Shown piece by piece: positions 368-14,988 of a DNA stretch of 35,696 bases. Each line of letters starts with the position of its first letter. Positions within the stretch are counted from its first letter, which is position 1. The translations under genes were made by a program, and so were the position numbers. The stretch comes from Bacteroidota bacterium (GTDB taxonomy: Bacteria; Bacteroidota; Ignavibacteria; UBA10030; UBA8401), in contig JAGVPT010000126.1 in NCBI GenBank assembly GCA_020052095.1, positions 1 through 35,696 of the forward strand. The letters run 5' to 3'. The notes beneath the pieces were generated by a model. The model saw only the letters and a list, made by a program, of their open reading frames with translations, was not told the origin of the DNA and did no database searches.

Positions 368-1684
368 TTATTCCTTCTCCTTCGGTTTCCGCTTGGCAAA
401 GTCTTCGTCAAATTCTTTCCGCGTCTTCTCGATCAGATTCTCATTTTTCTTCATCTTGTCGGCCAGGCGCTCCTCGATCGTTGGCACGACTTCCGCCCTT
501 AGGAGAACAATGAGTTCCTTCTTGATATCGGTCTTCGTCTCTGAACCAAAAATGTAGCGCAGTCCAAAAATGTACCACGGCAGATCTTTGAGGAACGGAA
601 TTCCCGACCGCGAAGTTGATTGCTCGGTGGAATAGAGTCCTCCAATCACGGTCTCCTCTCCGTCGTTCAGCAGCAGGTACGTATCGATGGACGATTTGTC
701 GACGTTCGAGCCGCTTTGCTTGCTGTTCTCAACATGAATCTCTAGATTAATGAAACGAACTCCCTTGTCTTCATACAATATTGGCGTGACGCCAATAATA
801 ATTCCTGTCGCTATTTTTTGTTGGATAGTATTCCCCGCAAAATCTCTCGTTGTGACAAATATATCCGTGCCGATCTGGATATTCCCTTTTTTCCCTGAAG
901 AAACAATTATCTGCGGACTTGAGATGACGTCCCCGAGACCATTGCCCTGGAGAAACGAAATAAAACCGGTCAGATTGCTGAATCGAACATTGGGAACTAT
1001 TCTCGCTAAGAAAGCGTTCGGTTGCTGCGCTCCAGCACTCCCCGATCCGGACGCTGCCGTCGGATCTTCGAGGTTGCTTTTAAACTGACCGCCAAATTGC
1101 GTTGCTTTTCCCGCCGTAGTGTCGCCAAAATACAAATAGCTCCAGTTGATTCCTGTGTTAAGCGTTTTCGAAACGTCGACTGAAAAGAATACTGTCGAGA
1201 TTTTTATATCACGCGAAAGGAGCATCGCTTTTGATGCGGAATCCTTCGCAGCGGCCGCTCCCCCTCCTTTTGGTACGCCTCCCGTCAAAGAATCTGCCGG
1301 GTTGGTAATTTGAAAATATTCCTCCCTCTCTTCGTACCACAGTGAGTTTGCACGGAGCACAGTCTCGAATGCCTGCAACCAGTACATGTTCTCTATGTCG
1401 ACCCCTATTTCTTTTTTGTTGTATAAGGGATCTACGATGATCTTGTTCAGGTATTTCTTGCTGAAATCGGTGAAGAGCGACATTGATCTGTCAAACGGCA
1501 GCGTCTTCGACATTGAAATCAATTCTTCCGGCGAGACGTAATCGTTTAACAACACGCGCCTTTCACGATTTGATTGTGCCGTGGCCGAATACGATCCGAC
1601 AATCAACGCCGCGCAGAGATAGAGAAGGCCTGTTGCGGTAATCGACGACGTGACTCGTCGAGGATGAATACCCAGAATTTTCAT
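368..1684 (-). CDS. pilQ: type IV pilus secretin (PilQ-like, short)
   Basis: This is probably the outer-membrane secretin through which the pilus exits. The 438-residue product has an N-terminal hydrophobic signal ending near Ala-Thr-Ala-Gln (about 34-37). A secretin N0/STN-like domain follows (about 55-120), then a Gly/Ala-rich linker and the secretin barrel domain (about 150-400). Barrel hallmarks include the ISSPQIIVSSGKKG strand and GEETVIGGLYS followed by GIPFLKDLP. PilQ proteins are commonly about 700 residues with AMIN and N1 domains; this one is much shorter and lacks them. The charged Lys/Glu-rich tail is unusual. The gene starts 3 bases after the PilO-PilP stop, with AGGA just upstream, and is the last visible gene of the pilT-to-secretin operon. 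The family call is firm; assignment to PilQ rather than another secretin rests on context. Confidence 0.86.
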   Translation of the reverse strand: MKILGIHPRRVTSSITATGLLYLCAALIVGSYSATAQSNRERRVLLNDYVSPEELISMSKTLPFDRSMSLFTDFSKKYLNKIIVDPLYNKKEIGVDIENMYWLQAFETVLRANSLWYEEREEYFQITNPADSLTGGVPKGGGAAAAKDSASKAMLLSRDIKISTVFFSVDVSKTLNTGINWSYLYFGDTTAGKATQFGGQFKSNLEDPTAASGSGSAGAQQPNAFLARIVPNVRFSNLTGFISFLQGNGLGDVISSPQIIVSSGKKGNIQIGTDIFVTTRDFAGNTIQQKIATGIIIGVTPILYEDKGVRFINLEIHVENSKQSGSNVDKSSIDTYLLLNDGEETVIGGLYSTEQSTSRSGIPFLKDLPWYIFGLRYIFGSETKTDIKKELIVLLRAEVVPTIEERLADKMKKNENLIEKTRKEFDEDFAKRKPKEKE

Positions 1685-1687
1685 GGA

Positions 1688-2578
1688 TTAATTCCTCGTG
1701 GTTTTTTCTTTGAAGACAATCTTCTTACTCACTGTCTCGATGATGCCCCCGTTATTGAGCGTGAATTCGACGGTTCCTTCCTGCGGTTGGGTTGCCGTCA
1801 TCTTGCCGAGATATACTTCATCTCCCACCTGCAAGGTGATAAGTTTACCGGTTTGATCCATCACCAACGCTTTACCTGGCGCAACGGCCTTCACGTTAAT
1901 GGTCGCGATATCGAGAAGATTGCGGACATTCAACGGCGTCAGCCTCAGAATACTTGGAAGGAATGGATTCGAAGTGATAGGCTGGGGCACAGAGTCAGGC
2001 TTCATAACCCGCTTTCCCAAAGAGCGCTCGGGAGTATAAAACGCGTTCAATTCAATATCGTAGGCCAGTCCAACAGTCGGAAATTCCTGGTTGCCCTTCG
2101 TCTGTTCCTCACCGCGGAGACTGATGGTTGTAATCTTGTACAGCCGCCGCCCGTTCTCCAGAAGCCATATAAATCGGAAGATGTTCGGAAATTCCGCCGT
2201 GCCGGTCAATCTGTAGGTGTTATACCCATATTTCGGTGTGGCTCTCGTCCCGGTGTATTTCATGTTCAACCGCAGCGAACCGCTCTCGTCAATAATGTCG
2301 CTGAGATAGCCGTACGTCTGGGAAGAGATATCGAACTCTCCGATCTCTTTTGTTCTGTTGTTCCACCGGTGCACGGTCTCGCGCAGCTTGCCCTGCATTC
2401 CGGTGATCGCGCTTGTTTGTAACGTGTTGTCCTGCAATTTGCTTTCGATCTCTTTCGCCTCAGCTCTATACTTCTTTATCTTCCCCGGCTGATAAATGAA
2501 AGAGAAATATCCGCCAATGCCCACGACCAAAAACAGGATGATACCAAGTGCTATCGAATTTCGAATTTTATAGGACAC
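1688..2578 (-). CDS. pilO: pilus alignment protein, PilO-PilP fusion
   Basis: The 296-residue product probably bridges inner-membrane alignment proteins and the secretin. Residues 8-28 form one transmembrane helix. A coiled coil (about 30-80) and a PilO-like ferredoxin-fold region (about 85-180, ending LAYDIELNAFYTPE) follow. A Pro-rich linker with NPF (204-206) leads to a C-terminal beta domain (about 222-290) reading ALVMDQTGKLITLQVGDEV. This matches the PilP pattern of 'ALV.D..G....+.VGD'. PilO is normally about 200 residues and PilP is normally a separate lipoprotein, so this looks like a fusion. The start is GTG with an AAAGGG element 4-5 bases upstream; PilM-PilN ends 12 bases before. 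PilO identity is supported by position and topology, and the PilP part by the beta-domain motif only. Confidence 0.78.
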   Translation of the reverse strand: MSYKIRNSIALGIILFLVVGIGGYFSFIYQPGKIKKYRAEAKEIESKLQDNTLQTSAITGMQGKLRETVHRWNNRTKEIGEFDISSQTYGYLSDIIDESGSLRLNMKYTGTRATPKYGYNTYRLTGTAEFPNIFRFIWLLENGRRLYKITTISLRGEEQTKGNQEFPTVGLAYDIELNAFYTPERSLGKRVMKPDSVPQPITSNPFLPSILRLTPLNVRNLLDIATINVKAVAPGKALVMDQTGKLITLQVGDEVYLGKMTATQPQEGTVEFTLNNGGIIETVSKKIVFKEKTTRN

Positions 2579-2590
2579 AGATACCCTTTA

Positions 2591-4159
2591 TCAATCAGAA
2601 TCCAGCTTTTGAATGGTCAACACGAATTTGTACACAGTCTTCCCCCGTATCTCCTCCATTTCCACAGATTGCAATGTGGCCTTCTCAAACATGTTTGCGA
2701 TGCGCGGAATTCTGGGACGATACAGCGTGTACCCCGTCAGCACGATGGTGCTGTCGGCCGCCGTGAGAATATCCCGCACCCAAACCGAGTTAACGTCTTC
2801 AATGCTGTGCGTGAGGTGATAAAACACTTTGCTCCAGCGATTGTAATTCGGGACGATCAAATCGTACACCGCAAGCGCACTGATAAACTGTTGATTCTGC
2901 ACGGTCAGACTATCGAGGATAGTCTGTAAGCGTTCGTTTTCCGAAAGCTGAAGCTGCTTCTGCTGCAATTCCCTGTTCGCAATTCGCATTTCATCCGCCA
3001 AGTCGCCGACGCGGTTTGTGAAGAACAGCGTTCCGAGGAAAATCATCAGCATGAGAACGTATCCGTGCCATGCCAGCTTGAAGACTTTCTGCCCTTCTCG
3101 AAAACTTAGCGGCAGGAGGTCGACGGAATAGACGTTTGGGTTTTTCTGATCCAACGCCCGCATCGCCACGGAGATCGGGATTGCGTACTCCGAGATGATC
3201 TCTTCTACGTTTTCCTGTAATGCGCCGGTATCAAGATTTTTCGGAACGAGATACTCGATCGGGGCCTCGGCAAACTGCGGAGAAAGGAATTGTTTCAGCT
3301 CCAGTTTGTGGGCTTCGCCGGCAAGGAAAATCCTGTCGAGACGCATGATCCCAGCGCTGTCCTGCTCCAAAAGGATGCGTGAATACAGAGTGTTTTCAAT
3401 ATTGGCGGAGGTTCGACCTTCACTGATGACGGGCGCGAAGTGCAAGAAATCCTTCCCCTTCATGAAGATCAACCTGCTGAACTCGTTCCCCACATACATG
3501 ATGACCGAAATTTCCTCTGCGCCGATCTCATAATGCACGCGGACAAGATTCATCAGCGAGATGTCGGAAGTCTCGATGAAAGGTATCTGTGGTATGCGCT
3601 TGCCGATGAAATCTTTGATATTCTCCAGAATATCGATGAGGCTCAGTCCATCTTCACGGATAACAGAGAGTACCTGCCCTTCGGTCGCTTGAATGTACGC
3701 GACGGCGTCGGGATTTGGCTTTGACGCGCGAATTTTTGAGAGTTCTTCGACGAGCTTCTTCTTGAGTTTGCCGCCCGAAAGTCCAAAGGAATCCTCAAAC
3801 GTCTGGTAATAGACGCTCGGTTCTGAAATCGAATAGACAAATTGATATTTGTAGGAGGGGAATTCGGTGAGCAATCCTAGGAGAACACTGTTGTTCGTTT
3901 CTGCACCTTCAGTCTCCGCTGTTACACCCTCTTGGATCAGGGGGGTACTTGCGCCCGCATCGAGTAGATCAACGCCTTCCAGGCCAAGCCCGGCGTCTCC
4001 TGCCAACTGGCGCTCTTCGAGTTTCTTCACCAGGTTGACGGTCTTGAAATCTTCAAGATGGAATTGCTTGTTCTTCAGCCAAATATGAACAAACTTGACG
4101 TCTAGCCCGTCAACGAAAACGCCAAGCGCGGTTTTTCCTTCTCCTTTCGAATAGGGCAT
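2591..4159 (-). CDS. pilM: pilus alignment protein, PilM-PilN fusion
   Basis: The 522-residue product appears to join the cytoplasmic actin-like PilM and the membrane protein PilN. Residues about 10-340 look like PilM: ALGVFVDGLDVKFVHI opens the fold and the ISVIMYVGNEFSRLIF strand lies near 217-232. At 346-350 comes VDLLP, equivalent to the conserved N-terminal INLLP of PilN, which binds the PilM groove. A transmembrane helix (about 362-382), a coiled coil (385-430) and a periplasmic ferredoxin-like domain (about 435-520) complete the PilN half. In most pilus systems these are two genes. A low-complexity acidic insert (about 50-92) interrupts the PilM domain. No Shine-Dalgarno site is seen before the ATG. 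The gene follows the PilT gene after a 371-base gap containing repeats. Confidence 0.8.
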   Translation of the reverse strand: MPYSKGEGKTALGVFVDGLDVKFVHIWLKNKQFHLEDFKTVNLVKKLEERQLAGDAGLGLEGVDLLDAGASTPLIQEGVTAETEGAETNNSVLLGLLTEFPSYKYQFVYSISEPSVYYQTFEDSFGLSGGKLKKKLVEELSKIRASKPNPDAVAYIQATEGQVLSVIREDGLSLIDILENIKDFIGKRIPQIPFIETSDISLMNLVRVHYEIGAEEISVIMYVGNEFSRLIFMKGKDFLHFAPVISEGRTSANIENTLYSRILLEQDSAGIMRLDRIFLAGEAHKLELKQFLSPQFAEAPIEYLVPKNLDTGALQENVEEIISEYAIPISVAMRALDQKNPNVYSVDLLPLSFREGQKVFKLAWHGYVLMLMIFLGTLFFTNRVGDLADEMRIANRELQQKQLQLSENERLQTILDSLTVQNQQFISALAVYDLIVPNYNRWSKVFYHLTHSIEDVNSVWVRDILTAADSTIVLTGYTLYRPRIPRIANMFEKATLQSVEMEEIRGKTVYKFVLTIQKLDSD

Positions 4160-4530: not shown

Positions 4531-5808
4531 CTATGCCGTTGGTCCACCGGCTCCCAGCAATTGCTGCATGCGTTTCTTGTTGTTTGAATAGTTGATCGCG
4601 GACTCAAGAGAAATCTTCTTTTGGACAAATAACCTCTTCAAGTCTTGTTCCATCGTCGTCATCCCTTGGTCGCCAGATTCCTGGATCATCTGGTAAATCT
4701 CCCCCGTGTTGTTGTTCTTGATCGCCGAACGGACAGAAGGAGTCATGACCATGACCTCTCGAGCAAGTACTCTCTTTCCATCCAGGCTGGGAATAAGTTT
4801 CTGCGACATAACACATCGGCACACATCAGCCAGACGATTGCGAACTCGTTCCTGCTCCACCGGGGGTATTTCACCAATAATACGATCTATACTCTCCACT
4901 GCCGAGGCGGTGTGAAGTGTAGAGAATACCTTATGGCCGCTATCGGTAATTTCAAGCGACACCATGATTGTTTCCGGATCACGCATTTCACCGATCACAA
5001 TAATATCCGGATCTTGTCGCAGCGCCTGAATTGCTCCGTCTTTGAACGACGTTACATCACGTCCAACCTCGCGATGGCGGACAATGCATCTATCCGACTT
5101 GTGGACGAATTCGATCGGAGATGCAATCACGACGATATGCCCGTCAACCGTGTGATTGTTTAAATCAATCATCGCATCGAGCGTCGAACTCTTACCCGAG
5201 CCTGTAATACCTGTAACCAGCGTCAGCCCTTCTTTGGTGTGTGCAAGGCTGACTATTTTTGTGATATTTGGATGAAGCTCCAACGTTTTGTACGGACGAA
5301 TCGTCTGGTTGATCGCGCGCATGTTGAGCGCGACCTGATCCATGTCCAGGTACGCATCGGCGCGGAATCGGACCAACTTCTCGCCCTCCTGGATCATGTA
5401 CGAAAAATCCAGATTCTTGTTCTCGTACAATACCTGGCGCTGCCTCGCCATAAGTAGCGAGAGAATAAGAATATTAATTTCGTCCGAACCCAGTTTTTCG
5501 ATAGTCGGATCCGGTTTTTTAGAACCGAAAATCCGATACCAAATTAACCCCTGTCCGCCAAACCCTCCTAAATCAATATCTGATGCACCAATGGTGAACA
5601 TGCGCATCAGAAGTGAATTTACCAATTCTCGAAGGAGAGTCCTGCTCTCAATTGGAAGCTTTTCGACGAGATCGCCTATGAAAATCTGGCGTTCCAGTCC
5701 GAACACGCTTTCGGGAATTGTGGCGACCTGCTGCTTCAAGAACTCGCGCGCTTTTGTCTGAGCGTCATCAACTGGCGCCACCGTTTGCGCCGGGTTCAAC
5801 GTATCCAT
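4531..5808 (-). CDS. pilT: PilT-family pilus ATPase (probable retraction motor)
   Basis: The 425-residue product is a hexameric secretion ATPase of the PilT/PilU branch, expected to drive pilus retraction at the inner membrane. An N-terminal extension of about 70 residues precedes the usual GASDIDL motif (74-80). Walker A is GITGSGKS (200-207), Walker B DPDIIVIGEMRD (266-277) and the His box GHKVFSTLHT (291-300). The Asp box normally reads IEDPIE, but here it is IASPIE (228-233), so two acidic positions are Ala and Ser. There is no tetracysteine zinc motif, which distinguishes it from PilB. It heads the pilT-PilMN-PilOP-secretin unit, about 97 bases downstream of a strong promoter. The start ATG has no clear Shine-Dalgarno sequence. 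The family is certain; the retraction role is inferred. Confidence 0.9.
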   Translation of the reverse strand: MDTLNPAQTVAPVDDAQTKAREFLKQQVATIPESVFGLERQIFIGDLVEKLPIESRTLLRELVNSLLMRMFTIGASDIDLGGFGGQGLIWYRIFGSKKPDPTIEKLGSDEINILILSLLMARQRQVLYENKNLDFSYMIQEGEKLVRFRADAYLDMDQVALNMRAINQTIRPYKTLELHPNITKIVSLAHTKEGLTLVTGITGSGKSSTLDAMIDLNNHTVDGHIVVIASPIEFVHKSDRCIVRHREVGRDVTSFKDGAIQALRQDPDIIVIGEMRDPETIMVSLEITDSGHKVFSTLHTASAVESIDRIIGEIPPVEQERVRNRLADVCRCVMSQKLIPSLDGKRVLAREVMVMTPSVRSAIKNNNTGEIYQMIQESGDQGMTTMEQDLKRLFVQKKISLESAINYSNNKKRMQQLLGAGGPTA

Positions 5809-6076: not shown

Positions 6077-6236
6077 CTCACGTTACGCACGGAATGAAAA
6101 ATTTGCCACGAAGGCTCTAAGACTCAAAGATTCCAAAAAATACCCTTTACTGAGTGAGGTGGTGAATAGGATTTCTTGTATTTCTTAGTGTCCTGGTGAC
6201 TTTGTGGCAATATTTCCTGCTTTTTGCGCAACTTCA
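6077..6236. repeat. TIR element copy D (diverged)
   Basis: The left end CTCACGTTACGCA and the right end (minus strand CTGAAGTTGCGCAAAAA) are degenerate versions of the terminal repeats in copies A-C. The interior keeps the inverted motif pair TTGCCACGAAGGC near 6103 and CTTTGTGGCAA near 6200-6210. It sits between the PilX-like stop and the pilT promoter and contains no gene. Confidence 0.6.
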
Positions 6237-6250
6237 GAAATTAGGCACTA

Positions 6251-7456
6251 TCATTCGAGCCACGAAAGAATTTCGTAGCTACTCGTCGTGGGAAACTCGG
6301 GCGGGTTATCAGTTAAGAAGCGCTGGTCGTATTGAAGTGAAAGGTTATAGCCTTTTCTAAGGGCGCCCGAAGCCCCATTTGACGTGGCATAAAGGTTCTT
6401 GACGATCATACCGCCTACAACCGTAAGTGTTCCAGCGGGACGTGACGTACCGTTCTTAACGCTCATGCCGCCTCCTTCGCTGTACATTGAAGCCATCACG
6501 TTGAAGCTTGTCGCCCCATTATCCATTATTTGTATATCGCCTTTGCTGATAATCCCCAACATATCGGTGGAGGAAGGGTCAATTCGAGGGTCTGCACTGT
6601 ACACCAGGTCATTTTCAACAAATACTTTTCCACCGACGGTGCCGGAACTCTTGTTTGCAACAATCGACGCCCTCCCTTTTACCGTCCCCTGAACGTAGAT
6701 ATTCGCCTTGTCAACTTCAATGATGCCGTTTGGGGCAAATGCGGTCAATTCTGCCTCCGTTACAGTACCCGTCGGAGAAGTCTTCCAGAGAAGCCTTCCG
6801 TTTGGCAGAAAAGTTAGATAGAGATCCGTCCCAACTTGCTTGTACCCCCCATTCGACGCGATGGAATCCAAGGTACTAAAAGCTGTCGTCGGCAACGGAA
6901 TGCTCACGCCAGTCTCATAACCTCCGTTGAAGTAGGGTTTAGCGGGAGAACCGGACTTGATCAACCCGGTTTTCGTGGTGACCTTTCCTTGAAATACAGG
7001 CTGACCGTATGTCTTCAGCGTCCCTTCGACATGCATGGGCCCGGTAACCGTATCTCCCGTCTCCCATGCTGCCGCGGCAGCGCCTGAGCCTCCCCAAAAT
7101 GCAAACTTCGCAAAAGAGCTGGGCTGAAGGAGTATCTTAATCGAGTAGTTACTCCCGTCATAAATCGCGGTCGATACGACCTGGATATTTTTCGTGCCGC
7201 TGACCGGAGTAACGGTAACCGAAAATGTGCCGCCGGCAAACGGAATGTTTGAATATCCGGTACGCCAATTCCCTACCAGGAAGATTTGATTGCATGCAAA
7301 ATTCGCCCCCGCTTCTGCAATGTTGTGGATGGAGGTGTTTTCGTAATAGTTGATCGCTGTCTTAAACGCTTCGGTACTAACGTTCGATAAGTTTCTTCCC
7401 GTCATCAAGAACACCAGGGTGAAACCCATCACGAGAAATATCGACGACCGTCCCAT
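6251..7456 (-). CDS. minor-pilin-like protein, PilX-like, DUF4900-type
   Basis: The 401-residue product begins MGRSSIFLVMGFTLVFLM, a short hydrophobic segment directly after Met-Gly. The remainder is extracellular-type: an Asn/Gly/Thr-rich repeat-like beta region including GPMHVEGTLKTYGQPVFQG (about 130-150), which resembles DUF4900 beta-solenoid proteins. Position and topology suggest a PilX-like minor pilin or pilus-tip protein that could prime assembly or bind a surface. It lacks the GFTLIE-type cleavage site. GGAAGGAAG lies upstream of the ATG. It follows the PilW-like gene by 30 bases. The pilus role is inferred from context; the beta-solenoid reading is moderate. Confidence 0.65.
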   Translation of the reverse strand: MGRSSIFLVMGFTLVFLMTGRNLSNVSTEAFKTAINYYENTSIHNIAEAGANFACNQIFLVGNWRTGYSNIPFAGGTFSVTVTPVSGTKNIQVVSTAIYDGSNYSIKILLQPSSFAKFAFWGGSGAAAAAWETGDTVTGPMHVEGTLKTYGQPVFQGKVTTKTGLIKSGSPAKPYFNGGYETGVSIPLPTTAFSTLDSIASNGGYKQVGTDLYLTFLPNGRLLWKTSPTGTVTEAELTAFAPNGIIEVDKANIYVQGTVKGRASIVANKSSGTVGGKVFVENDLVYSADPRIDPSSTDMLGIISKGDIQIMDNGATSFNVMASMYSEGGGMSVKNGTSRPAGTLTVVGGMIVKNLYATSNGASGALRKGYNLSLQYDQRFLTDNPPEFPTTSSYEILSWLE

Positions 7457-7486
7457 AGTCTTCCTTCCATAATTAAAATCAGCAGC

Positions 7487-8131
7487 TTATCGGTTTCTGA
7501 GATTTCGAGACACCAAACGCACCTGCCTCCAAAATGCCGAAGAATACTCCCTGTCGAATCTTGCCGTATTGAATCGAAGAGCGGTAGCAGCAAGATTCTC
7601 AACCTGCACCGTAATTTGCATCGTCCAAATACTACCGGGGTTCACGATAGGATATCCGAGCGTATCCTTCATCGCATCAAAATACTTCAAGCTAAACTCG
7701 GTCACGCCCAAGTTTGCACCTTTCGGCGGTTTGTTGTTCTCTACTCGGTACAATATCCGGTCTCGCGGATTTGGAGTTATTGAGAGCTCACTGGTGGGAC
7801 CAAGATAATAGTACAGAATGTCAAGGTTGCCGTCGCCGTCAGGGTCCGAAGGCGTGCCTAAGTCGGTGTAGAACTTTATCCTCGTCGAATCGGCAAGGAT
7901 GATTGCTTTGGTCGGGTCAGGGAATTGAGTAGGGTCTTTGCAGTATCCAATCCTCCGAAAATCGTACTCAATCATGCGCGAGACCATGACGATATTATCC
8001 TGGACAAGAAGGTCTCCGTTATACCTCTGAAGATTCTCGTTGACTGACCCATTCAGACGGATCGTCATCAGCAGCAATGTGCCGAACGTAATCGAGGACC
8101 CTATGATATCCAGCATAACTTGTGAGCCCAT
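7487..8131 (-). CDS. minor-pilin-like protein (PilW-like)
   Basis: The 214-residue product starts MGSQVMLDIIGSSITFGTLLL, again Met-Gly plus a short hydrophobic helix (about 6-24). A helical stretch follows containing QDNIVMVSRMIEYDFRRIGY (about 45-64), a pattern typical of PilW/GspJ-type minor pseudopilins. A beta-rich C-terminal domain completes the protein. There is no canonical prepilin leader and no Glu5. A GAGG element lies about 13 bases before the ATG. It stands between the PilV-like and PilX-like genes, the usual minor-pilin order. Function is inferred from neighbours and the N-terminal helix. Confidence 0.65.
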   Translation of the reverse strand: MGSQVMLDIIGSSITFGTLLLMTIRLNGSVNENLQRYNGDLLVQDNIVMVSRMIEYDFRRIGYCKDPTQFPDPTKAIILADSTRIKFYTDLGTPSDPDGDGNLDILYYYLGPTSELSITPNPRDRILYRVENNKPPKGANLGVTEFSLKYFDAMKDTLGYPIVNPGSIWTMQITVQVENLAATALRFNTARFDREYSSAFWRQVRLVSRNLRNR

Positions 8132-8157
8132 AAATCAACTGCCTCTTCGGTTTGTTT

Positions 8158-8351
8158 ACTGATGTTACCCAGAGTTTAAGAGCCTTGCCACTCCCAACGG
8201 GATGCCGTTGGCACAAGGCACTAAGGCACAAAGACTTTCTAAGGAAAGCTTCATTTTGTAAGGTCCATTAATAAAAAAGGTTGTTTTTCTTTGTGACTTT
8301 GTGACTTCGTGACTTCGTGGCAATGATATTGGCGTTTTGCGCAACATGAGT
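8158..8351. repeat. TIR element copy B with nested palindrome
   Basis: The ends read ACTGATGTTACCCAGAG (left) and, on the minus strand, ACTCATGTTGCGCAAAAC (right). Inside, TTGCCAC...GGCAC near the left is mirrored by the GTGACTTCGTGGCAA motif near the right, so the whole element could fold into a long hairpin. The central block, about 40 bases around 8250-8290, is almost identical to copy C. A 23-base palindromic insert (CCAACGG/CCGTTGG, 8194-8211) interrupts the left arm. The element starts 3 bases after the PilV-like stop codon. Confidence 0.75.
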
Positions 8352-8354
8352 TTG

Positions 8355-8846
8355 TTATCGGAAGTACCAATAGCTGTAAACGTCGTAGAACTTCAACGTG
8401 TCGGTCATGGATGGGCTTGACACTTTCACAGTAATTCTTTTGTTGTAGGTCCGCGTTCCGGAAACAACAATTGTGCTCCCAGAGATACTAACGTAATCCA
8501 CATCGACTCTCGTCGTAAACACGGCAGAGCCTTGAAGGCTGTCCACCCTCACCAAACCCTCGAAATCGTCATAATCATCGTAGTCAGGATAAACTTCCCC
8601 GCTCTCCGGTCCGAGCGTCGTGGAAAGGAAAGAGGTGTTGTTGATACTGCTAGTGTCGGTCGCTTCGTCAAACGCCATCCCGGAAGCCTCTTCAAGAATC
8701 GAAGTCCCCAGCGAGGTCCCGGTGATCCGGTAGGCCGACATCTCAATGGCAGCGCCGCTCATTGCAGTTCCCGTGTTGACGGAGAGGATCAGCCTGCCAA
8801 GCATCATCGTTGCCATGATTGTGAGAAGTGTCTGTCCCGTTCCCAT
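8355..8846 (-). CDS. minor-pilin-like protein (PilV-like)
   Basis: The 163-residue product starts MGTGQTLLTIMATMMLGRLIL, a hydrophobic helix directly following Met-Gly. A Thr/Ser-rich beta domain with an acidic YPDYDDYDDFEGL segment (about 92-104) follows. DYDDFEGLVR-like segments are common in PilV/GspI-type prepilins. There is no GFTLIE motif and no Glu5. GGAG lies 9-10 bases upstream of the ATG. It is the first of three consecutive minor-pilin-like genes downstream of pilB. The pilus role is inferred from position and topology. Confidence 0.65.
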   Translation of the reverse strand: MGTGQTLLTIMATMMLGRLILSVNTGTAMSGAAIEMSAYRITGTSLGTSILEEASGMAFDEATDTSSINNTSFLSTTLGPESGEVYPDYDDYDDFEGLVRVDSLQGSAVFTTRVDVDYVSISGSTIVVSGTRTYNKRITVKVSSPSMTDTLKFYDVYSYWYFR

Positions 8847-8896
8847 TCGTTAATCTCCGTTTTTCGTAGAGCCTAAGAACTTCATGCGTTCATACA

Positions 8897-8915
8897 TTGA
8901 ATATATGGTATTCAA
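8897..8915. promoter_or_regulatory. small palindrome upstream of the PilV-like gene
   Basis: TTGAATA (8897-8903) and TATTCAA (8909-8915) form a perfect 7-bp inverted repeat with a 5-base centre. It lies about 50 bases before the PilV-like start in the 282-base gap after pilB. It could be an operator or a minor RNA hairpin. Nothing else in the gap stands out. Confidence 0.25.
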
Positions 8916-9128
8916 AGAATATCCGCTGTGGTGGAAAGCACTTTGCCCGATTATGTCCTTCGTCTGGTAACTACGAAATGAGCAATCTGCGTGCCTAAGA
9001 ATTATTTGAACATAAAGCCGATAACTGGGCAGGATTTCGCGCTTTTGGCGTGAACACGGTACGTGCACTACACGGGTCGGTATTTTTGTTAGGGTAAAAA
9101 TTACACCCAGTGTGCGATGAAGATGAGC

Positions 9129-10916
9129 TTACTCCTCCTCGACCGTCGTGGAAATGACTTCTTCGAGACTGGTGCTGCCTTCTTTCATTCTTTCCATGCC
9201 GGATCTGCGCAGTGTCCACATACCGTCTTTCGCAGCCTGATCGCGGATTGAATTTTCGTCCACCTTATCGCCGGCATTTAAAATAATGTTCTTGATTGCT
9301 TTACTAAAGAAGAGCGCTTCGTGAATTGCGGCACGACCTTTATAGCCTCCGTTACATTTATCGCAACCGACTGCTTTATACATTTTATGAGCGTGGAGTT
9401 CCTCTTCGGTAAAACCAAACTTTATCAAGTCCGGCCAATCTTCCTCGGTGACGGGCTGCTTGCAAAGCTTACACAGTGTTCGAATAAGGCGCTGCGCCAC
9501 AATGATGTTGATAGCGTAGGCTATCAAGAATGGTTCGATGCCCATTTTGTACAAACGAGCAACGGCGCTCGGCGCGTCGTTCGTGTGCAACGTCGAAAAC
9601 ACCAAGTGACCGGTATTCGCAAGCTTGATCGCAGTCTCCGCCGTAATCTTATCGCGCATTTCACCGACGAGAACTATGTCGGGGTCATGTCGCAATATAC
9701 CTCTGATGGATTGTTCGAACGACATCTTCGGACCGATCTTCAACTGGCGCGCGCCTTTAATAATGTACTCAACCGGTTCTTCAATCGTCAAAACGTTTAC
9801 CGTCGGATCGATGACTTGGTACAACGCGGCAATCAGTGTAGTGGATTTTCCGGAACCCGTTGGTCCCGTAAGGATGATAATGCCCTGAGGCTTCTTGATT
9901 GCTCTATCGAAAAACGCGCGGGCCGGTCCCTGCAACCCGAGTTTGTTGAGATCGGTGATAACTTTGCGGTCATCGAGAACGCGGATAACGACGCTTTCAA
10001 ACTTATGCTTGAAATCTGTCGTTACAATCGGCATGATGGACACGCGGAATCGCAATTGGTGACCATCGATGACGCGTTGGATAAAACCGTCTTGCGTCGC
10101 CTCACGCTCAAAGCGGTCGACGTTTTTTGTTCTATCCTTTACGACTGCGAGAACTGCCTCCGGCATCGTGTTTTCCTGACGGTGCCACACCTGCAAATTA
10201 CCGTCAAGGCGGAACAAGAAGTTTGTCACATTTCCTTCGGAGGGGACGATGTGGATATCGCTCACATCCTTGCGCACGGCTTCAACGATGCATCCTTCAA
10301 TCAGATTGGCAAGAGCGCTCTTGCTGATTTCGGCTTCGAGCGCCTCTTCATCGACCGATACGTCGTCGGTGCCGGAGTCAACACTGATCTGATTGTCCTC
10401 GAGCAGTTTTAGAAATTCATTTTGCGGCGGGATGACCTGTTCGAGCAGGTTCTGCAATTCTTTCAGGCGGACGTACGTCACCTCATACTTCTTGGCATTG
10501 AAATTTCTTGCGATAAGCGGGATATTTCTGTCAGTCGGGTCTGCACAAATGATAATGAGCTTGTCCCCCTGCTTTTCGTCGAATTTCAGCGGGAGCATCT
10601 TCGACTGTATGAGCATATCCCGGTACGAGTCCTGCAATCCGTCGACGAACTTTCGGATGAATTCGATACGCCCCTTGTCGGTAACTTCGTCCGCAAGATA
10701 AATTTCCCGGAAGGCATAGAGGTTAGCAACTTCACGAAACACTGCGTCGTGATCGGCGTTGAATTCGGTCACAAGAATCTGGCCGAGGTTGCGCCTCTCC
10801 TTCTTATTGGTTTCTGATTCCTTGACTCTAAGTGATTTTTCCAGAGTCTCGTAATCGATGATTCCTTTTTTCAGAAGGGTGTAGCCAATCTTATCAGTGA
10901 TATCGACATCAGCCAT
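9129..10916 (-). CDS. pilB: type IV pilus extension ATPase PilB
   Basis: The 595-residue product is the assembly ATPase that powers pilin polymerisation. It has an N-terminal T2SSE-N/MshEN-like region (about 1-170), where c-di-GMP-type control is known in some homologues, then the RecA-like ATPase core. Visible motifs are Walker A GPTGSGKS (351-358), an intact Asp box TIEEPVE (377-383), Walker B DPDIVLVGEMRD (411-422) and the His box GHLVFSTLHT (436-445). The tetracysteine zinc site is Cys482, Cys485, Cys518 and Cys521. Length is near the family norm. A GGGAAGGGAA stretch precedes the ATG. It follows pilC with a repeat element in between, the reverse of the common pilB-pilC order. Confidence 0.95.
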   Translation of the reverse strand: MADVDITDKIGYTLLKKGIIDYETLEKSLRVKESETNKKERRNLGQILVTEFNADHDAVFREVANLYAFREIYLADEVTDKGRIEFIRKFVDGLQDSYRDMLIQSKMLPLKFDEKQGDKLIIICADPTDRNIPLIARNFNAKKYEVTYVRLKELQNLLEQVIPPQNEFLKLLEDNQISVDSGTDDVSVDEEALEAEISKSALANLIEGCIVEAVRKDVSDIHIVPSEGNVTNFLFRLDGNLQVWHRQENTMPEAVLAVVKDRTKNVDRFEREATQDGFIQRVIDGHQLRFRVSIMPIVTTDFKHKFESVVIRVLDDRKVITDLNKLGLQGPARAFFDRAIKKPQGIIILTGPTGSGKSTTLIAALYQVIDPTVNVLTIEEPVEYIIKGARQLKIGPKMSFEQSIRGILRHDPDIVLVGEMRDKITAETAIKLANTGHLVFSTLHTNDAPSAVARLYKMGIEPFLIAYAINIIVAQRLIRTLCKLCKQPVTEEDWPDLIKFGFTEEELHAHKMYKAVGCDKCNGGYKGRAAIHEALFFSKAIKNIILNAGDKVDENSIRDQAAKDGMWTLRRSGMERMKEGSTSLEEVISTTVEEE

Positions 10917-10951
10917 GGTATGGATTCCCTTCCCTCAAGAAGATATTAGAT

Positions 10952-11114
10952 CTCATGTTACGCAGAGTTTAAAAGCCTTGCCACCAAGGCACGAAGACAC
11001 TAAGGCTCTTTAAGGAAAGCTGCATTTTGTAATGTCCATTAATAAAAAAGGTTGTTTTTCTTAGTGACTTCGTGACTTCGTGGCAATAATATTGGCGTTT
11101 TGCGTACCATCAGT
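10952..11114. repeat. TIR element copy C
   Basis: The ends read CTCATGTTACGCAGAG (left) and, on the minus strand, ACTGATGGTACGCAAAAC (right). The right terminus touches the pilC stop codon (TAA followed immediately by CTGATGG). The central block is nearly identical to copy B and lies in the same orientation. Inner motifs TTGCCACCAAGGCACGAAG and CTTCGTGACTTCGTGGCAA are inverted, so the element is a long imperfect palindrome. It fills almost all of the pilC-pilB gap. Confidence 0.78.
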
Positions 11115-12496
11115 TAGATGAAGGATCTCAACATGTGGACAACATGGATGAGAAGCCCTCCGCCGCCCGGAGGTTTTGGTTTGATCGTTGCCGTCTCGGA
11201 TGATACGAGGGTCAATCCCGTTAACACAATCATGATGATCATGGATATGACAAGCTGGATTAGGTCGATCGCATTGCGCATGCGATATCCGGTTTCTTTT
11301 TCATAGTAGTCGGCGAGCTGCAACGCGGAGTTCTTCACGTTGCCGGTTTCCGCCCCTGAATGGAATCGTGAGATGGCTGTTTTTGTGAACACACCGGTTG
11401 CCTCGAAGGCTTCGGTGATGTTCATTCCTTTTTCAACCATCAACGGAAGCGCAACCGTCCTGATTTGAGCTTCCATGTATTTGTTGCCGCACGCCTCCGC
11501 CGCCATCTTGATCACTTCAATATTCTCTCCCGAACCGCTGTAGAGGGCGTAAAAGACACGGCAGAAAATTTCAATGCTCGTTTTGTGCATCAGATCGCCG
11601 ATGGCCGGAATCTTCCACATGTACTGGTCGAGGATATATCTGCCCTTTTCTGTCGAGGCAAATCGAAGAAAGGCGACCAAAGGCACTGCGAATGAGAGAA
11701 CAATCCAAAGTATATTTTCAATGATAAAATCGCTCAGTTTCAAGGTTGTTCGTGTCATCGGCGGCAGTTCAATCTTGAATTTCACGAACAAACTTGCCGT
11801 GGCCGGAAAGATGTATGCGACGTAGTACCCGACTGCACCGAACAAGATCACCAGGGTGACCACCGGCATGATCAACGCGCTCTTCAGATTTTTTTTGAAT
11901 TCGGCGTTGCGTTCAAGAAATTTCGCGGTGCTTTCGTAAATTTCTGCCATGTTGCCGCTCTTCGATGCGAGGCCCAGCATGTGAGCGGCGAACTTGCCCA
12001 ATTCTTTTTCGTGCTTCACGAACGCCTTCTCGCTGTCCTTTCCTTGTTTCAGTTCCTGATTAATATCGCGGAGGCACTCCCGGAGATTCTTATTCTGGAT
12101 ATCGTTGATGAGAAGCTGCATCATTTCATTGAAAGGGAGTTTCTGCCTGATAAGATCGGAGCTGACGCGAACAAATGAGACGACATCCGTCGGGGGAACC
12201 GACCCTACCTTGTCAAATAGCTTCTTGCGGACATAGAGGACTTGATACCCCATTTTCAAAAGAGCGTCCGTAACTTCCTGCTTGGTGAACGCTTTTTGTT
12301 CGCCGTCAATTTTTTCGTCCCCCTTTTTTACTCTGTAGAGGAATGTGGAACGGACCTGCACTCCAGTCAATTTGAACTTTCGCTCTTGCGCCATCTGTTC
12401 GGCGCGTTGTTTGGCAAGCTTCAACGTGTCCGCATTGATAATTCCCTGGATCGGTTTCCCGGCCAATGAAAGTCCTTCAATTCGAAACTCTGCCAT
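11114..12496 (-). CDS. pilC: type IV pilus inner-membrane platform protein PilC
   Basis: The 460-residue product is the polytopic platform protein of the T2SSF family that couples PilB/PilT to pilin loading. An N-terminal cytoplasmic region (about 1-110) is followed by two T2SSF helical domains. Membrane segments lie at about 206-228 (LIMPVVTLVILFGAVGYYV), about 260-280 and near the C terminus (LIQLVISMIIMIVLTG). FHSGAETGN in the second domain is a typical T2SSF motif. The length is slightly above the usual 400-410 because of the N-terminal part. AAGGGA lies about 10 bases before the ATG. It is the first gene after the predicted promoter at 12576-12604. Confidence 0.93.
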   Translation of the reverse strand: MAEFRIEGLSLAGKPIQGIINADTLKLAKQRAEQMAQERKFKLTGVQVRSTFLYRVKKGDEKIDGEQKAFTKQEVTDALLKMGYQVLYVRKKLFDKVGSVPPTDVVSFVRVSSDLIRQKLPFNEMMQLLINDIQNKNLRECLRDINQELKQGKDSEKAFVKHEKELGKFAAHMLGLASKSGNMAEIYESTAKFLERNAEFKKNLKSALIMPVVTLVILFGAVGYYVAYIFPATASLFVKFKIELPPMTRTTLKLSDFIIENILWIVLSFAVPLVAFLRFASTEKGRYILDQYMWKIPAIGDLMHKTSIEIFCRVFYALYSGSGENIEVIKMAAEACGNKYMEAQIRTVALPLMVEKGMNITEAFEATGVFTKTAISRFHSGAETGNVKNSALQLADYYEKETGYRMRNAIDLIQLVISMIIMIVLTGLTLVSSETATIKPKPPGGGGLLIHVVHMLRSFI

Positions 12497-12575
12497 ATTT
12501 TTATCCCTTGTTCGGCGATGATGTACGCGAATCGGCAGAACACCTGATGGTGCCTACAATGAACCCTCTTATGAA

Positions 12576-12604
12576 AAGATACTACGGCAGACAACAAAAA
12601 TCAA
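12576..12604 (-). promoter_or_regulatory. predicted promoter for pilC-pilB-minor pilins
   Basis: TTGATT (12604-12599), a 17-base spacer and TATCTT (12581-12576) on the minus strand fit a sigma-70-like promoter about 80 bases before pilC. The -35 hexamer overlaps the edge of the modular repeat that begins at 12602, so the repeat may have supplied part of it. Confidence 0.5.
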
Positions 12605-12779
12605 CTGTCGGTGGCGTCTCATTTTGTAGGAATTGAGGCAGTCAACAAGCTATCCGATTGCTGCGAGCAATCGGGTAGATCGAAACTGCACCACTACCCA
12701 ACTGTCGGTGGCGGGGTCTTTTGAGAAGTGATGCCATGACTCTCGCTATTGATTTAAGGGAGAAAGTCATGGCATCACT
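12602..12779. repeat. modular hairpin repeat, copy 1
   Basis: A direct repeat of CAACTGTCGGTGGCG (12602-12616 and 12699-12713) brackets a block with a 13-bp hairpin (CTATCCGATTGCT, loop GCG, AGCAATCGGGTAG; 12650-12678). Then come GGCGGGGTCTTTTGA (12710-12724) and a 15-bp hairpin, AGTGATGCCATGACT (12727-12741) with AGTCATGGCATCACT (12765-12779). Related modules recur at 15385-15507 and 18668-18845 in different arrangements. No transposase gene is present. Confidence 0.75.
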
Positions 12780-12802
12780 CGGTTTCCGGATCGCTTAGAT
12801 CA

Positions 12803-12838
12803 ATAAAAAAGGAGGTACGCCACATCCACGGCGTGCCT
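12803..12838 (-). terminator. intrinsic terminator after the pilin array
   Basis: On the minus strand a 9-bp stem (AGGCACGCC with GGCGTACCT, one G-U pair, 12813-12838) is followed by CC and TTTTTT (12810-12805). It lies 3' of the three pilin genes and the truncated pilin tail, so it should end the pilin transcript before pilC. The stem resembles the hairpin at 13606-13637. Confidence 0.75.
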
Positions 12839-12891
12839 GCCCGTCTGTATCAAACGAATGTTCAGTTATTCTTCGTAAGTAACTGTCAAAA

Positions 12892-12996
12892 CTAATTAAT
12901 TTTGGTCAGGGTTTGGCTCGAAATGGTCTCATCGAACTCAGACTCTGGAAACGTCCCGTCGTTAAATACAGGTTTGCCAACACCGTGCGGCGAGAA
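12892..12996 (-). pseudogene. truncated pilin C-terminal fragment
   Basis: Directly after the third pilin, in a different frame, the minus strand encodes HGVGKPVFNDGTFPE and then SEFDETISSQTLTKIN before a TAG stop (12894-12892). This aligns with the last 31 residues of the three intact pilins (HGVGK, DGTFPE, then a ...QT.TK.N end). There is no start codon, N-terminal helix or upstream pilin body in that frame. It is a partial fourth copy, left by unequal tandem duplication or deletion, or possibly a silent donor cassette. The hairpin at 12803-12838 lies 3' of it just as a similar hairpin lies 3' of an intact pilin. Confidence 0.8.
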
Positions 12997-12998
12997 AC

Positions 12999-13412
12999 CT
13001 AATTGACTTTCGAAAGCGTTTGGGTCTGGATGGTCACTGTCAGATCGTACTCCGGGTACGTCCCGTCGGGCATCGTGACCTTACCGACACCGTGGAGGAC
13101 GACTTGAGTTGAAGTTCCGTCTGTCTTGATCGTATACGTGCCGTTTGCGTTATTGGTATATTTGACTCCGGCCAGCATACCGATGCCGCGGTCGTCCGCA
13201 GTAAGCCCAACAAAGGACTTGCTACCTCCGCCCATGGTCATAGGCCTGGAGTAGTAATGTTGTGCTTTTGATCCCAGCAATTTCAAATCAGCAATCACCA
13301 AAACCCGATTATGATCAACGGCATTATCCTGAAACATTCCGATGCCGACCACTACGGCGACGCCGATGATAATCAACCCCAGTATGATCAGAAGAAATTG
13401 CTGCTGTCCCAT
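12999..13412 (-). CDS. major-pilin-like protein, paralogue 1
   Basis: The 137-residue product starts MGQQQFLLIILGLIIIGVAV, so the hydrophobic helix starts within six residues of the N terminus. A polar helix (about 28-60: MFQDNAVDHNRVLVIADL) and a small Gly-rich beta head domain with NNANGTYTIKT and HGVGK motifs follow. There is no cysteine pair, no GFTLIE leader and no Glu5. It is the most diverged of three equally long paralogues (for example KLLGSKAQHYYSRP against TTLAAKAQQYYAKP). The start has no Shine-Dalgarno sequence, but a promoter at 13469-13497 could express it alone. It is a pilin by topology, repetition and proximity to pilC-pilB; structural confirmation is lacking. Confidence 0.75.
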   Translation of the reverse strand: MGQQQFLLIILGLIIIGVAVVVGIGMFQDNAVDHNRVLVIADLKLLGSKAQHYYSRPMTMGGGSKSFVGLTADDRGIGMLAGVKYTNNANGTYTIKTDGTSTQVVLHGVGKVTMPDGTYPEYDLTVTIQTQTLSKVN

Positions 13413-13468
13413 AATTAGTTGAGTTTGGTTAGTTTAGGTGAACGAGATCCCACACTTACACTCAGGCA

Positions 13469-13497
13469 AAAATACAATCGCCACAATCAAAAATCAA
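13469..13497 (-). promoter_or_regulatory. predicted promoter of pilin paralogue 1
   Basis: TTGATT (13497-13492), a 17-base spacer and TATTTT followed by TG (from 13474 down) match both a sigma-70 layout and the Bacteroidota-style TAnnTTTG -7 element. It points at the pilin starting at 13412, with a leader of about 50 bases. Confidence 0.55.
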
Positions 13498-13605
13498 GTA
13501 TTTAATATCTTTATCCAGAAAATCTCGGCAAAATTGCAGGATTCCGAGCAATTATCGAGTCCCCTTGCTGCCATAACTACAATCTCATATCAGACGAAAC
13601 ATGAA

Positions 13606-13637
13606 GGCAGGCATGCCACAATTATGGCATACCTGCC
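13606..13637 (-). terminator. hairpin after pilin paralogue 2
   Basis: GGCAGGTATGCCA and TGGCATGCCTGCC form a 13-bp stem (one G-U pair) with a 6-base loop on the minus strand, 20 bases after the pilin 2 stop. The following bases are only moderately T-rich (TTCATGTTT), so it may be a weak terminator or an mRNA-stabilising 3' hairpin. Its sequence is related to the terminator at 12803-12838. Confidence 0.55.
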
Positions 13638-13657
13638 CGTTGGAATTAGACACTTCC

Positions 13658-14071
13658 TTAGTTGACCTTCGTTGGTAATTGTGTCTGGAAAGTCACCGTC
13701 ATATCGTATGTCGGGAATGTCCCATCGGTCAGCGCAGTCTTGCCTACTCCACGAAAAACAAGTGTGGTGGCTGTGCCTGCTGTCTTGATCGTATACGTGC
13801 CATTAGCATTGTTCGTGAATGCCGATGATGCAAGCAATCCTAATCCAACCGAATCAGCACTCAAACCTACGAACGAATTGCCACCGCCACCCAGTGTGGT
13901 CGGCTTGGCATAGTATTGCTGACCTTTTGCCGCAAGCGTGGTTAAGTCAGAGATCACCGCACTTCGGTTTTGGTCAACCGCATTGTCCTGGAACATCGTG
14001 ATACCGACCGCTACTGCTATACCGACGATGATCACGCCCAAGATGATTAAAAGAAGCTGTTGCTGTCCCAT
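13658..14071 (-). CDS. major-pilin-like protein, paralogue 2
   Basis: The 137-residue product (MGQQQLLLIILGVIIVGIAV...) is very close to paralogue 3 over the first 35 residues and has the same head-domain layout (LGGGGNSF, NNANGTYTIKT, RGVGK, DGTFP). As in its sisters, Met-Gly is followed at once by the hydrophobic helix, and there is no cysteine or Glu5. It has by far the best ribosome-binding site of the array: AGGAGG at 14082-14077, five bases before the ATG. It is therefore likely the most efficiently translated and a candidate for the main subunit. It lies 63 bases after paralogue 3, with which it is probably co-transcribed. Confidence 0.78.
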   Translation of the reverse strand: MGQQQLLLIILGVIIVGIAVAVGITMFQDNAVDQNRSAVISDLTTLAAKGQQYYAKPTTLGGGGNSFVGLSADSVGLGLLASSAFTNNANGTYTIKTAGTATTLVFRGVGKTALTDGTFPTYDMTVTFQTQLPTKVN

Positions 14072-14076
14072 AAAAA

Positions 14077-14082
14077 CCTCCT
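14077..14082 (-). promoter_or_regulatory. strong ribosome-binding site of pilin paralogue 2
   Basis: A perfect AGGAGG lies five bases before the ATG, between T-runs. The other two pilin genes have no comparable site, which predicts unequal translation of the three paralogues. Confidence 0.7.
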
Positions 14083-14134
14083 AAAAAAATATGTGAATGA
14101 TTTGTTAGTTAGTTGTACCGCGTGAATGTGAATC

Positions 14135-14548
14135 TTATTTAATCTTATTTGGCGTTTGTGTTTGAGTTGTCACTGTCATATCATACTCGGGGAAGTTTGT
14201 TGCATCTATTGCAACCTTACCAACACCGTGCAACACAACTTGTGTTGAAGTTCCCGCTGTCTTAATCGTATATGTACCATTCGCGTTGTTTGTAAATGCA
14301 GTAGAAGCCAAGATTCCAAGACTTGTAGAATCAGTCGAAAGACCTGCAAACGATTTGCCGCCGCCGCCAAGACTTACTGGCTTTGCATAGTACTGCTGTG
14401 CCTTCGCTGCCAACGTTGTCAAGTCGCCAATCACGGCGGTGCGGTTTTGATCCACAGCATTATCCTGGAACATCGTGATTCCGACGACTACAGCTACACC
14501 AACTATGATGACTCCAAGAATTATCAGAAGAAGCTGCTGTTGGCCCAT
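14135..14548 (-). CDS. major-pilin-like protein, paralogue 3 (first in the array)
   Basis: The 137-residue product (MGQQQLLLIILGVIIVGVAV...) has the N-terminal helix, the MFQDNAVDQNR linker and a Gly-rich head (LGGGGKSF, NNANGTYTIKT, HGVGK). Its C terminus ends NKIK, whereas the sisters end KVN. The segment TSTQVVLHGVGKV is shared with paralogue 1 while the N-terminal half is closest to paralogue 2. Such a mosaic could reflect gene conversion. No Shine-Dalgarno sequence is apparent. It is the promoter-proximal gene, with a possible sigma-54 element about 85 bases upstream. Pilin identity is inferred as for paralogues 1 and 2. Confidence 0.77.
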   Translation of the reverse strand: MGQQQLLLIILGVIIVGVAVVVGITMFQDNAVDQNRTAVIGDLTTLAAKAQQYYAKPVSLGGGGKSFAGLSTDSTSLGILASTAFTNNANGTYTIKTAGTSTQVVLHGVGKVAIDATNFPEYDMTVTTQTQTPNKIK

Positions 14549-14750: not shown

Positions 14751-14843
14751 GGTGGGGCTTAAACCAATAGGGGGTGTGAAGGGGGCGGCTTTGATGTTAA
14801 TTAGAATATTACGAGTGACCTAAAGAGCCGGTCGAAAAGCATC

Positions 14844-14956
14844 GCCACAAAGTCACGAAGACACCAAGGTGTGTGAGGACTTCATTTTTTCTCTTCTTTC
14901 TCTTAGTGCCTTGCCTGCCCGCCGCTTCGCTTTGGCAGGCGGGGTGCCTTTGTGGC
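14844..14956. repeat. GCCACAAAG inverted-repeat element with nested palindrome
   Basis: Perfect 9-bp ends, GCCACAAAG (14844-14852) and CTTTGTGGC (14948-14956), bracket a T/C-rich centre. It belongs to the same motif style as the inner arms of TIR elements B-D but lacks the outer TGATGTTACGCA ends. A 31-base palindromic insert (14913-14943; GCCTGCC with GGCAGGC) is flanked by identical 7-base copies of GTGCCTT (14906-14912 and 14944-14950). That looks like an insertion with target duplication. The rest of the 440-base gap before glnB shows only the direct repeats and promoter listed separately. Confidence 0.65.
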
Positions 14957-14988
14957 TAATAACGGGTTTTCGTCCAAGCTTCTAGAAT

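Follow-up and report, generated by a model that had tools for sequence, protein, structure and literature searches.

The removal of a class III signal peptide by a prepilin peptidase counts as a defining and nearly universal step in the maturation of type IV filaments. According to a 2015 review, prepilin leaders comprise 6-26 residues, bacterial leaders invariably end in Gly, and Nanoarchaeota is the only prepilin-bearing phylum in which the peptidase was not found (PMC4471445), while a 2019 survey of the superfamily lists the peptidase as a core component that is sometimes shared between systems (PMC6668835). In this article, a pilus operon whose six pilin genes all lack a leader is described from a 35,696-nucleotide contig (JAGVPT010000126.1, whole length, hereafter the window) of the Bacteroidota bacterium GCA_020052095.1, a member of the Ignavibacteria. 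The absence of leaders is confirmed and proves to be general among relatives, and the sequences and structural models are best read as pointing to a peptidase-independent type IV pilus. In the open-access papers searched, leaderless type IV pilins and peptidase-free type IV pili are touched on in passing remarks only, and no description of them was found.

Among described systems, the type IVa pilus shares with this locus the ATPases for assembly and retraction, the platform, the secretin, a major pilin that combines a long N-terminal helix with a C-terminal beta sheet, and minor pilins of the GspJ/PilW type, whereas the leader, the Gly-Phe cleavage site, the Glu5 of the major pilin and, in most genomes, the prepilin peptidase/N-methylase are missing here. 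Likenesses to the pseudopilins of type II secretion (GspG-K) are also seen, as the PilW-like protein matches the fold of GspJ (XcpW/EpsJ) and the PilX-like protein, like GspK, has no Glu5-like residue. However, PilT is encoded in the operon and the subunits are leaderless, so that on both counts the locus falls outside type II secretion, and in some of these genomes, ordinary prepilins with a peptidase of their own are encoded apart from it. The Bacteroidetes type II secretion system ('T2SS') of Cytophaga hutchinsonii, whose cluster includes an A24 peptidase (PMC5553014), is a different system from the leaderless pilus. Archaeal type IV pilins likewise often lack Glu5 (PMC4471445), but archaeal prepilins keep class III signal peptides and the peptidase. 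Genomes with mannose-sensitive haemagglutinin (MSH) pili always have the peptidase of another system, which the MSH pilus may use, whereas the genomes considered here usually have none.

The first-pass annotation of the window had reported six pilin-like open reading frames (ORFs) that begin with Met-Gly, enter a hydrophobic helix at once and have no leader. All six were found as described (Table 1), with the hydrophobic segment beginning within a few residues of Met-Gly, and neither they nor their homologues have a hydrophilic, Gly-terminated leader of about 6-26 residues. In-frame stops lie 1-10 codons upstream of the six genes and no ATG, GTG, TTG or CTG stands between stop and start; therefore, a longer leader is impossible in these genes. 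Only copy 3 of the major pilin has an ATT in this interval, immediately 5' of its ATG, and copy 2 is preceded by a perfect AGGAGG. Over codons 1-30, the three major pilins differ pairwise by 12-15 synonymous and only 2-6 non-synonymous codon changes, which indicates strong purifying selection on the N-terminus. None of the six is called a pilin above cut-off by Pfam or NCBIfam, which is why they go unnamed, and no N_methyl (PF07963) match was obtained anywhere in the genome of the window at E values up to 10. Pilin finders keyed to a leader or to N_methyl miss leaderless pilins, and these proteins consequently go unseen.

The leaderless start of the major pilin extends well beyond the window. 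Among 148 distinct homologues, an ATG start is found in 145, Gly2 in all 148, and Gln4 together with Gln5 in 147, with Gln3-5 nearly invariant as a whole; a motif resembling a Shine-Dalgarno sequence precedes 117 of the 148, and the upstream stop lies at a median distance of 4 codons and within 15 codons in 92%. Homologues that start further upstream and have a normal leader would have spoken against the original observation; such starts were looked for in this set and did not occur. In an alignment of 90 sequences, the residues M1, G2, Q4, Q5, L7, G17, G62 and G63 are invariant. Such N-terminal conservation across the 148 homologues means that the leaderless start is not a matter of chance. 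The major pilin is present in 82 of 149 genomes of the same class and in 115 of the 345 genomes of a phylum sample, and a scan of named genomes gave 78 loci in Ignavibacteria, Kryptonia, Melioribacteraceae, Balneolia, KSB1, Calditrichota and Zixibacteria. The carriers include Ca. Kryptonium thompsonii and Ca. Chrysopegis kryptomonas (Kryptonia) and the isolate Fodinibius halophilus (Balneolia). The genome paper of Melioribacter roseus noted pilT, pilQ, pilB and pilC, reported pilA and pilD as 'not found' and judged the pilus set incomplete (PMC3534657); the leaderless family perhaps explains the missing pilA.

Many carriers have several tandem major pilins per operon. In the window, the frame directly 3' of copy 3 (about 12890-13080, minus strand) reads as the remnant of the C-terminus of a fourth pilin (...GVGKPVFNDGTFPESEFDETISSQTLTK; E 9.8e-6), which suggests that the tandem copies have duplicated or recombined in the past. 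Leaderless pilins were also seen on oddly labelled contigs (L095, L125, L107 and L086, with the labels Patescibacteria, Kerfeldbacteria, Actinomycetota and Deltaproteobacteria), which may reflect transfer or misbinning.

By their sequences, the minor pilins of relatives are leaderless too, with a looser second residue. With start sites chosen partly automatically and a few rows beginning at an inner Met, Gly occupies position 2 in 15 of 25 PilV homologues (otherwise N, S, T and others), in 15 of 26 PilW homologues (which start with MG, MS, MT or MN) and in 17 of 22 PilX homologues (Phe in the other 5). Minor pilins without Gly2, such as those starting MSSLLD, MTVMLD, MNQILD, MNTGQ and MFGK, belong to the same machines as the Met-Gly major pilins. 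Met-Gly is therefore a property of the major pilin, while all of these pilins lack a leader. The four pilin families share no conserved cleavage motif. In relatives, the genes of the PilV-like homologues lie between those of PilB and PilT or at another place in the pilus locus, and the pilus operon L155 of genome G204 carries two tandem sets of PilV-, PilW- and PilX-like minor pilins.

The absence of a prepilin peptidase, previously noted for the window, holds for the whole genome (3.9 Mb, 98.8% complete), in which no Peptidase_A24 (PF01478) was detected at E 0.001, a search that was positive in 12 of 14 control genomes; for A24_N_bact (PF06750), the genome returned frame-broken noise only. 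Peptidase_A24 occurs in 8 of the 149 genomes of the class. In the phylum sample, the peptidase is found in 42 of 345 genomes and together with the pilin in 13, so that 102 of 115 carriers lack it, and its frequency is 11% with the pilin versus 13% without (Fisher p 0.86). Gaps in draft assemblies are an unlikely cause of the missing peptidase because several single-contig genomes (e.g., G113, G119, G292, G331, G381 and G388) also have the pilin without it.

Where it is present, the peptidase tracks ordinary prepilins. Within the class, all 8 peptidase-positive genomes have N_methyl prepilins, in each case on the contig of the peptidase itself, as against 8 of the 141 peptidase-negative genomes, counting all N_methyl matches up to E 0.1, including weak ones (Fisher p 2.6e-9). 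Among carriers found through named loci, mostly outside the class, canonical prepilins occur in 11 of 13 peptidase-positive but only 1 of 10 peptidase-negative genomes. Genome G207 has both kinds, with leaderless MGQQQ pilins in its pilus operon and, in a separate cluster, a canonical pilin (...RKEDG/FSLTELL, the slash marking the cleavage site) adjoining the peptidase gene.

By structure prediction, the major pilin has a pilin fold and the PilW-like protein a GspJ/PilW fold. The AlphaFold model of copy 2 (from 90 sequences; mean predicted local distance difference test (pLDDT) score of 90) consists of a single 54-residue helix at residues 2-55, followed by a four-stranded sheet. In the PDB, this model is best matched by the full-length Pseudomonas aeruginosa PAK pilin (Foldseek probability 0.95, template modelling score 0.63, E 0.14), and ranks 2, 3 and 18 are taken by further pilins that are of PAK type or chimeric. 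At the sequence level, the major-pilin profile also matches Geobacter-type pilins, though weakly (E 0.004). For the PilW-like model (pLDDT 79), the nine best PDB matches are GspJ-containing structures (XcpVWX, EpsI:EpsJ) and the Thermus pilin TTHA1219, with probabilities of 0.98-1.00. The PilX-like protein gives a partial match to DUF4900 (E 1.3e-4, below cut-off), and a beta-helix may make up its large C-terminal part; a weak bactofilin-like stretch was also noticed in this protein (6251-7456).

The register relative to canonical pilins was taken from profile comparison with 16 canonical prepilins of these genomes. In the best-scoring register, whose scores are weak, Gln4 of the major pilin falls at canonical +1 and Leu8 at the position of Glu5. 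The start Met would then lie about three residues before the +1 of ordinary mature pilins, and the uncut subunit would therefore be about three residues longer than a mature pilin, or two after loss of Met. The major pilin has no Glu at mature position 5 in either count, since Leu8 is aligned there and residue 5 counted from Met is Gln. The statement in the first-pass annotation that Glu5 is missing from all six proteins thus stands for the major pilins but in part not for the minor ones: residue 5 of PilV homologues is mostly Gln and in some Glu, and in PilW, an Asp at residue 8 or residue 6 coincides with the Glu5 position or lies close to it, where the same register places an Asp in the long form of PilW. 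The idea that Gln5 might directly substitute for Glu5, with Met as mature residue 1, would fit the Gln or Glu of PilV and is conceivable, but it was set aside because the profiles place residue 4 at +1.

The operon is read here as encoding a type IV pilus that can be retracted and whose subunits, major and minor alike, carry no leader when translated and would need no prepilin peptidase, a reading to which a probability of roughly three in four is assigned. PilB, PilC and PilQ stand in one locus together with PilT, as in a type IVa machine, beside the predicted pilin folds of the major and PilW-like subunits. In the proposed mechanism, the hydrophobic helix would anchor the subunit in the membrane with its N-terminus inside and its C-terminus outside, as in ordinary prepilins, the initiator Met of Met-Gly would probably be removed by methionine aminopeptidase, and PilC and PilB would take up the subunit uncut and without PilD-type N-methylation, so that it would enter the filament as it is. 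Conserved N-termini, predicted pilin folds, an apparently complete pilus machine and the lack of a peptidase in this and most related genomes agree with the earlier proposal of an alternative pilin class. It is likely that the loci of Ignavibacteria, Kryptonia, Balneolia and their relatives, KSB1, Calditrichota and Zixibacteria form a bacterial type IV pilus branch that occurs widely and does without leader, prepilin peptidase and, probably, N-methylation, and in which pilins are assembled as translated. If this is true, there is no inherent need for leader, cleavage or N-methylation, and their purpose becomes a question that can be asked.

Several observations weigh against the peptidase-independent pilus. 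Profile matches to canonical pilins are weak (hhalign E 0.005 and 0.09; hmmsearch E 1e-4). Most KSB1, Calditrichota and Zixibacteria carriers hold Peptidase_A24. The invariant Gly2 of the major pilin is what would be expected of a residue preceding a cleavage site, and an unrelated peptidase encoded elsewhere in the genome is possible.

The first-pass annotation had offered two options, cleavage after Gly2 or use of the subunits uncut. The evidence favours the second: the minor pilins of these machines do not all keep Gly2, so a rule of cutting after Gly2 would not work for every subunit, and there is no Peptidase_A24 to do the cutting. A minimal two-residue leader, which would have the major pilin cut after Gly2 by an unknown non-A24 peptidase and its N-terminal Gln perhaps cyclised to pyroglutamate, is thus unlikely, although the Gly2 of all 148 major pilins resembles the Gly-1 of ordinary prepilins and the near-invariance of Gln3-5 also counts for such a cut. 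A Gly in second position also favours removal of the initiator Met. No conserved extra peptidase-like gene is found in the operons of the window or its relatives, most carriers lack the A24 enzyme, and a leader of two residues would fall outside the reviewed range (PMC4471445).

A hidden or non-orthologous prepilin peptidase that cuts, and perhaps methylates, at another site in the N-terminal segment would bring the subunit to the usual length if three residues were lost, given the alignment of Gln4 with canonical mature residue 1. This is very unlikely, as the four families share no cleavage motif, both peptidase profiles found nothing in the genome of the window, and the operon offers no candidate. 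It is likewise very unlikely that the proteins form no external filament and serve, for example, in a short periplasmic pseudopilus or secretion device. The architecture is partly common to type II secretion and the Bacteroidetes 'T2SS' cluster with type IVa pili (PMC6668835), but PilT scores above its curated cut-off and tandem major pilins are frequent; moreover, such a device concerns the use of the subunits and not the absence of the leader. Misannotated start codons hiding an ordinary leader are ruled out by the sequence, with stops close upstream and no usable start in the window genes, and the same in homologues.

In the window, the operon runs in the order pilins-PilC-PilB-(PilV-PilW-PilX)-PilT-PilMN-PilO-PilQ, which recurs across relatives, with the three minor-pilin genes relocated or undetected in some. 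The sequences of PilB, PilC and the secretin place each of them clearly in its superfamily. The identities of PilMN and PilO are suggested by operon position: the 522-residue chain at the PilM/N position, which has no Pfam or NCBIfam match, is possibly a fusion of the actin-like PilM with PilN, and the protein at the PilO/PilP position has no NCBIfam family match.

Table 1. Pilus genes of the window, with coordinates and the evidence for each.
Feature	Coordinates	Strand	Evidence
Major pilin copy 1, leaderless (MGQQQLLLIILGVIIVG...), MGQQQ start	14135..14548	-	ORF; in-frame stop 5 codons upstream; 148-homologue family
Major pilin copy 2, leaderless, MGQQQ start	13658..14071	-	ORF; in-frame stop 3 codons upstream; AlphaFold model
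Major pilin copy 3, leaderless, MGQQQ start	12999..13412	-	ORF; in-frame stop 7 codons upstream
PilC/GspF inner-membrane platform	11114..12496	-	Pfam T2SSF 1e-30; NCBIfam PilC/GspF 1e-40 to 1e-41, below equivalog cut-offs
PilB assembly ATPase	9129..10916	-	T2SSE 1.6e-97; TIGR02538 PilB 1.8e-122, below equivalog cut-off
PilV-like minor pilin, leaderless (MGTGQTLLTIMA), MGTGQ start	8355..8846	-	ORF; in-frame stop 1 codon upstream; homologues in pilus loci of relatives
PilW/GspJ-like minor pilin, leaderless (MGSQVMLDIIGS), MGSQV start	7487..8131	-	ORF; stop 1 codon upstream; AlphaFold and PDB fold matches
PilX-like large minor pilin, leaderless (MGRSSIFLVMGF), MGRSS start	6251..7456	-	ORF; stop 10 codons upstream; partial DUF4900
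PilT retraction ATPase	4531..5808	-	TIGR01420 322.7 bits, above curated cut-off 319.1
Putative fused PilM/PilN-type protein	2591..4159	-	Operon position; long N-terminal domain and transmembrane segment
Putative PilO/PilP-type protein	1688..2578	-	Position between PilMN and secretin
PilQ/GspD secretin	368..1684	-	TIGR02517 4.7e-25, TIGR02515 2.9e-24, below equivalog cut-offs

Four intergenic stretches of the operon (6100-6220, 8190-8330, 10960-11090 and 14840-14960) look alike by eye (gccac..aaggc..actaaggc ... cttagtgacttcgtgacttcgtggcaa), as though copies of a small interspersed repeat had been scattered between its genes.

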